DNA of 45,855 nt from Sphingomonadales bacterium. Lineage in GTDB: Bacteria > Pseudomonadota > Alphaproteobacteria > Sphingomonadales > Sphingomonadaceae. The notes under the pieces were generated by a model. That model was not told where the DNA came from. It searched no databases and saw only the letters and a program-made list of their open reading frames with translations. Numbering within the stretch: the stretch's first letter is position 1; each line of letters begins with the position of its first letter. This document shows, in pieces, positions 24,349 to 26,366 of this stretch. The position numbers and the translations under genes are program-made. Location: the NCBI GenBank assembly GCA_013791705.1, contig VMTF01000177.1:1-45855 (forward strand). The letters are read 5' to 3'.

Positions 24349-25197
24349 ATGCCTGTTCCCTTCGTCAAGATGCACGGCCTCGGCAACGACTTCGTCGTGC
24401 TCGATGCGCGCGTGGCTGCGGTCCCGCCGATCGACGCGCGCCTCGCGGCGGCGCTGGCCAACCGGCACACCGGGATCGGCTGCGATCAGGTGATCCTGCT
24501 CGAACCCCCGACCCCGGCGGCGGGTGGAAGCGCCGATTTCCGAATGAGAATATTCAATGCCGACGGCAGCGAGGTCGAAGCCTGCGGCAATGCCACCCGC
24601 GCGGTCGGCCTGCTGCATGGCCGCCCCGCGCGGATCGAAACCCTGGCCGGCCTGCTCGAAGCGACCCCGACGGATGACGGCATCGCGGTCGACATGGGCG
24701 AGCCCCGGTTCGGCTGAGAGCAAATCCCGCTTGCCTGGGCGATGGATACGCTGACCATGCCGGTCGGCTGGGAAGACCTGGCAGGCCCGGCTGCGGTGAA
24801 CGTCGGCAATCCCCACGCGATCTTCTTCGTGCCCGATTGCGACGCGGTCGACCTGGCCCGGCTCGGCCCGCTGATCGAGACCGATCCGCTGTTTCCCGAA
24901 CGGGTCAACGTCAATGTCGCAACGGTCGAAAGCCGCTCCGCGATCCGCCTGCGGGTGTGGGAACGCGGCGCCGGGCTGACGCTGGCCTGCGGCACCGGCG
25001 CCTGCGCCACGGCCATCGCCGCCATGCGGCGCGGCCTGACCGAGCGCACGGTACGCGTCACCCTGCCCGGCGGGCCGCTGACGATCGCCTGGGGGGCGGA
25101 CAATCATATCCTGATGACCGGCCCCGCGACCGAATCCTTTCGCGGCAGCTTCGATCCGGCCGCCTATGGCCCGGATATCGCAGGCGCGCGCGCGTGA
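24349..25197 (+). pseudogene. dapF: Diaminopimelate epimerase gene interrupted by an in-frame TGA
   Basis: DapF converts LL- to meso-diaminopimelate for lysine and peptidoglycan. Two ORF-track entries (24322-24717 and 24742-25197) are in the same frame and together make one DapF of about 282 codons. The first piece starts MPVPFVKMHGLGNDFVVLD and keeps the first catalytic Cys (EACGNATR). The second keeps NVGNPHAIFF and the second catalytic Cys (ACGTGAC). They are separated by TGA at 24715-24717 followed by EQIPLAW. Relatives usually have Trp or another residue here, so TGG to TGA is the simplest explanation. The break at residue 123 lies near the linker between the two half-domains. The second piece could restart at ATG 24742, but its ribosome site is poor. 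Error, mutation, readthrough or a split enzyme remain possible. Confidence 0.88.
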
Positions 25198-26366
25198 CGG
25201 TCGAAGTCGTGTCGCTGGGTTGCCGGCTCAACCTGTCCGAAAGCGAAACCATGCGGGCGATGCTGGCCGGCGCGGACGACCTTGTGGTGATCAATTCCTG
25301 CGCGGTCACGGCCGAGGCGGTGCGCCGGACCCGGCAGGCGATCCGCCGCGCCCGGCGCGCCCGGCCGGACGCGCGCCTGATCGTCACCGGCTGCGCCGCC
25401 GAAATCGAACGCGCGGGCCTGACCGCGATGGCGGAAGTCGATGGACTGGTCGCGAACGCCGCCAAGCTCGATCCCCGCGCATGGAACGTGGGCGAAGTAT
25501 CAGTAGCGCCGCCCGCCGCCTATACCCGCGCCTATATCGCCGTGCAGAACGGCTGCGACCATGCCTGCACGTTCTGCGTTATCCCGCAGGGGCGTGGCCC
25601 GAGCCGGTCCTTGGCCCCACCCGAGGTGTTGCGCGAAATCGCGGCGCATGTGGCGCGCGGCACGCGCGAAATCGTGCTGACCGGGGTTGATCTCACATCA
25701 TGGGGGCATGATCTGCCGGATGCGCCGGGACTGGGCGCACTGGTGCGGGCCATTCTGAGCGCGTTTCCCGACCTGCCCCGGCTGCGGCTGTCCTCGCTCG
25801 ACGGGATCGAGATCGACGACGCGCTGTTCGAATGCCTCGCGGGCGAGCCGCGGGTGATGCCGCATGTCCATCTTTCGCTGCAGCATGGCCATGATCTGAT
25901 TCTGAAACGGATGAAGCGCCGCCACGCCCGCGCCGATGCGATCACGCTGGTCGAGCGGCTGCGCGCGCAGCGGCCGGACATCGCGATCGGCGCGGATCTT
26001 ATCGCCGGGTTCCCGACCGAGGACGCGGCGATGCACGCGGCCAACCTGGCGATCGTGCGCGAACTTGGCATCGTCCATGGCCACGTGTTTCCGTTCTCGC
26101 CGCGCGCCGGCACCCCGGCCGCGCGGATGCCGCCGGTGCCGCCCGCGCTGGGGCGCGAGCGCGCCGCCGAGCTGCGCGCCGCCGTGGCCCAAACGCGCGG
26201 AAGCTGGCTCACCGCGCAGATTGGCAAACCCCTCGCCGTGCTTGCCGAACGCGACGGGACCGGCCATGCCGAAAACTTCGCCCGGGTGCGACTTGCGCCC
26301 GGGACCAAGCCCGGAACGATTCTGACCATGACCCCCACCCGGATCGAGGAAGGCCTGCTGGCATGA
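25194..26366 (+). CDS. mtaB: tRNA (t6A37) methylthiotransferase MtaB
   Basis: This radical-SAM methylthiotransferase adds a methylthio group to t6A37 in tRNAs reading ANN codons. It is 390 residues from GTG 25194 (MTVEVVSLGCRLNLSESE), overlapping the dapF stop as GTGA; the track start at 24837 lies inside dapF. The N-terminal Fe-S domain Cys residues are in SLGCRLN, INSCAV and VTGCAA. The radical-SAM motif CDHACTFC is followed by VIPQGRGPSRS. A C-terminal TRAM-like segment ends the protein. MtaB and MiaB are similar; the short N-terminal VEVVSLGCR start favours MtaB. Confidence 0.9.
   Translation: MTVEVVSLGCRLNLSESETMRAMLAGADDLVVINSCAVTAEAVRRTRQAIRRARRARPDARLIVTGCAAEIERAGLTAMAEVDGLVANAAKLDPRAWNVGEVSVAPPAAYTRAYIAVQNGCDHACTFCVIPQGRGPSRSLAPPEVLREIAAHVARGTREIVLTGVDLTSWGHDLPDAPGLGALVRAILSAFPDLPRLRLSSLDGIEIDDALFECLAGEPRVMPHVHLSLQHGHDLILKRMKRRHARADAITLVERLRAQRPDIAIGADLIAGFPTEDAAMHAANLAIVRELGIVHGHVFPFSPRAGTPAARMPPVPPALGRERAAELRAAVAQTRGSWLTAQIGKPLAVLAERDGTGHAENFARVRLAPGTKPGTILTMTPTRIEEGLLA

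Follow-up and report, generated by a model that had tools for sequence, protein, structure and literature searches.

An in-frame TGA in dapF of a Novosphingobium-type draft genome is most likely a base-level error in the assembly

The dapF frame is complete except for one internal stop codon

The window analyzed here is a 45,855-nucleotide stretch of a Novosphingobium-type draft assembly. On its plus strand, at 24349..25197, lies a reading frame of 282 codons plus a stop codon for diaminopimelate epimerase, DapF, the product of a cell-wall and lysine biosynthesis gene. Translation of this frame (MPVPFVKMHGLGNDF...EACGNATR...MGEPRFG*EQIPLAW...ACGTGAC...ARA*) revealed a sole interruption, a TGA after 122 residues that occupies codon 123 (24715..24717, plus strand). 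The stop separates an upstream half of 122 amino acids (24349..24714, plus strand), with the catalytic Cys79 in the motif EACGNATR (codon 79, 24583-24585), from a downstream half of 159 amino acids (24718..25197, plus strand), which shows no decay and contributes the catalytic Cys214 in ACGTGAC (codon 214, 24988-24990). Each half thus contains one catalytic cysteine. The first in-frame ATG past the TGA is codon 132 (24742..24744, plus strand). We found neither an internal promoter nor a terminator within dapF. Its neighbors are intact, with a gene for a GGDEF/EAL protein upstream, and with mtaB (tRNA methylthiotransferase; 25194..26366, plus strand), whose start overlaps the dapF end, and ftsY downstream.

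With codon 123 entered as X, the frame matched the TIGR00652 DapF profile at 260 bits (cut-off, 114.65 bits), spanning profile positions 3-267 of 270. Taken separately, the upstream half scored 102 bits and the downstream half 147 bits against the same profile. Two PF01678 matches above the cut-off were obtained in the product, and solved DapF structures align along its entire length. The window DapF shares both PF01678 repeats and both cysteine motifs with Novosphingobium-type DapF (TIGR00652; PF01678; EC 5.1.1.7), and it is about 83-84% identical to the protein of Novosphingobium flavum, yet differs from this type in the TGA at codon 123, which leaves DapF without one uninterrupted frame in the given assembly. 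A preliminary description of this DNA had reported the TGA after 122 residues, the key motifs of both halves in one frame and intact genes on either side, and all of this is borne out by the given sequence.

Codon 123 encodes tryptophan throughout the relatives

Comparison with 120 distinct relative sequences showed residue 123 to be Trp in every one (120/120), and the codon was TGG in every relative in which it was read, in agreement with the earlier claim that the TGA stands in place of a tryptophan codon. At well-conserved columns of the alignment with these 120 relatives, the window DapF displayed nothing unusual besides codon 123 and an insertion around residue 56. We looked for clustered errors near codon 123, like those in thiC and cpdR described below, and found none; Gly122 is present in 20 of the 120 relatives.

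A dapF match was found in all 150 genomes of the genus with at least 90% completeness and at most 5% contamination. In none of the other genomes is DapF broken at codon 123; broken copies are interrupted elsewhere or at contig ends. Some dapF rows from other genomes had been flagged as containing one TGA, but the loci that were read show TGG at codon 123, and the sole stop inside an alignment of these rows sits at the alignment’s far end. In two other genomes assembled into few contigs, dapF is split over two frames (G112:C1 2092610-2093409 and G031:C4 466509-467298) by apparent frameshifts, one near residue 97 and the other near residues 158-161; both are probably sequence errors too.

For synteny, we used the nearest named relative, N. 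flavum NBRC 111647. Across ~45 genes compared with the syntenic N. flavum region, dapF alone is interrupted in the window. Another two rows with a stop flag in this comparison were weak matches of ~53-54% identity, which we judged to be spurious antisense frames. Substitution rates against N. flavum (Nei-Gojobori) were dN 0.103 and dS 0.475 in the upstream half (dN/dS ~0.22), and dN 0.097 and dS 0.580 in the downstream half (dN/dS ~0.17). Both halves of dapF are under purifying selection. Given that the gene has not decayed past the stop, the TGA either is an error, or is translated across, or is very young.

Biological routes around the stop are improbable

A search of the genome returned one dapF only, and no match to a meso-DAP dehydrogenase that could bypass it. 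The TGA-containing copy is thus not a simple pseudogene beside a second intact dapF, an outcome that the preliminary description had considered. The lack of both a second copy and a bypass enzyme, together with the undecayed state expected of a very young mutation, fits a genuine nonsense mutation of very recent origin in the sampled strain or a sub-population, which would either build LL-DAP walls without DapF or carry the stop as a transient allele. Strict essentiality does not apply to DapF: E. coli strains that lack dapF are viable and build LL-DAP into the wall (PMC9794725, PMC4086706), which makes such an allele conceivable and removes the essentiality of dapF, invoked earlier, as a ground for interest in the locus. 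Against a recent nonsense mutation speak the retention of dapF in all 150 good-quality genomes of the genus and the similar stops that this assembly has in rplD and murE (see below), which cannot all be tolerated alleles; we consider this explanation unlikely.

Were the TGA genuine, it might instead be read through as Trp by the near-cognate tRNA-Trp(CCA), which is present in the genome, yielding some full-length DapF. TGG to TGA is the very substitution whose readthrough usually restores Trp. However, none of the 38 tRNA genes has the UCA anticodon that reads UGA, and the release factor 2 gene (prfB) is retained, in accordance with the earlier statement that TGA serves as an ordinary stop; neither a suppressor tRNA, nor selenocysteine, nor an alternative code is indicated for codon 123. 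A single tRNA-Sec match above the cut-off turned out to be tRNA-Ser(TGA). The site moreover occurs in no relative, and most of the other nonsense codons in the assembly are TAA or TAG, which reading of UGA would leave unexplained. We regard readthrough as very improbable.

The preliminary description had also raised a two-polypeptide enzyme. In such a case, the half-domains would be made separately, the second from the ATG at 24742, and would assemble into a working DapF. The position of the break near the domain junction, the presence of one catalytic cysteine in each half and an in-frame ATG eight codons past the TGA all lend themselves to this idea. Yet no relative shares the split, the broken copies elsewhere being interrupted at the other places given above, and the ATG at codon 132 is an ordinary internal Met of the family, found in 108 of the 120 relatives. 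By eye, no Shine-Dalgarno-like sequence lies at the usual distance from it. The C terminus in known structures of DapF returns to pack in the first domain, so that free halves would need to intertwine. As the assembly context favors a base error by far, a two-chain DapF is scarcely credible.

Lone stops recur in conserved genes of the same assembly

The source assembly is a draft of 292 contigs and 3.09 Mb, with 96.7% completeness and 3.7% contamination. We scanned 1.25 Mb of the 3.09 Mb for stops on either side of which the same frame was the best coding one, scoring all six frames with a hexamer model trained in-frame on long reading frames; the six-frame comparison was adopted since a looser coding scan was confounded by antisense shadow frames. 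At least seven other conserved genes were found to carry a lone in-frame stop, in these seven cases TAA or TAG. The identity of the interrupted families was confirmed with NCBIfam and Pfam, and the stops fall within domains.

Among these genes, rplD, encoding ribosomal protein L4, contains a TAG (C90:2334) where relatives have A/D/E/E. The assembly’s only full murE is interrupted on the minus strand by a TAA (C58:2316) at a variable position, at which relatives show Q/E/E/K/R/H. In thiC, a TAA (C163:6926) replaces the E of the invariant EGPGHVPM, and the preceding residue is aberrant as well, being Ser instead of an Ile that is identical in all relatives examined. A gene for a CpdR-like receiver (cpdR) has a TAG (C188:3386) where relatives encode S, and the neighboring Asp of SDIVMPEMDG, identical in all relatives examined, is likewise aberrant. 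The remaining stops lie inside the Pfam domains of a D-2-hydroxyacid dehydrogenase (TAA, C80:6262, minus strand), a sigma-54 regulator (TAA, C42:7033) and a GGDEF/EAL protein (TAG, C87:12124). No second copies of rplD, murE or thiC were found in the genome.

For cpdR alone among the seven sites, a second contig was available for comparison. Contig C159 (1-129) overlaps C188 by 127 bases within this gene and reads TCG where C188 has TAG; the stop sits at the edge of the overlap, and this difference is one of the two mismatches within it. More generally, ~11 of 810 bases (~1.4%) differed across five dovetailing pairs of contig ends. Many contig ends also have in common short diverged repeats (~80-95% identity), which seem to belong to a dispersed repeat family where contiguity of the assembly is lost.

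When applied to 0.49 Mb of DNA from relatives, the same scan returned eight candidates that we interpreted, without exception, as ordinary gene boundaries, in a control that is not independent of dapF as most of its loci surround this gene in other species. The assembly thus holds lone stops comparable to that of dapF, in unrelated single-copy core genes and absent from the scanned sequence of relatives.

A base error is the most probable explanation for the stop in dapF

That other core genes, among them rplD, also carry lone stops argues for a base error at codon 123 rather than a split or recoded enzyme. Reassignment of TGA provides no explanation for the stops, among which TAA, TAG and TGA all occur, and real nonsense mutations in rplD, murE, dapF and the others together are not plausible for a free-living bacterium. 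We infer that the stop in dapF shares its cause with the other lone stops of the assembly. Most probably, the TGA arose at the base level from faulty assembly or a mixture of strains, and the real gene specifies a full-length DapF of the usual kind, with Trp at position 123. A single wrong base, or the base of a minor strain, would have entered the noisy draft consensus at this codon, and the functional dapF of the organism most likely lacks the TGA. The preliminary description had named a sequence error as the first possibility to check, which agrees with this explanation.

The location of the site speaks against a base error: codon 123 is placed centrally in a 45.9 kb contig, among the larger ones of the assembly, and coverage may be better there than at contig ends. 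With the spurious interrupted genes of noisy draft or metagenome-derived assemblies, dapF shares a setting of scattered lone stops in single-copy core genes and of disagreeing contig overlaps; it differs in being located mid-contig, with no second contig contradicting it directly. A literature search for nonsense errors in metagenome assemblies retrieved no papers.

Overall, what the preliminary description had read from the letters, namely the stop itself, the replacement of Trp and the ordinary use of TGA as a stop, stands, whereas its appeal to essentiality and to a two-chain enzyme is not supported: no relative is broken here, and like stops in rplD, murE and thiC point to assembly noise. 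That a real, fixed TGA renders DapF two-chain or readthrough-dependent in this organism is extremely doubtful; if true, DapF would be a rare case of a cell-wall enzyme that is naturally split or depends on readthrough. Several other lone stops occur in the assembly, one of them in the gene for ribosomal protein L4, so that a lone stop in a conserved gene of this draft is no evidence of biology. The letters at codon 123 were read correctly, yet the organism itself most likely does not have this stop in dapF.
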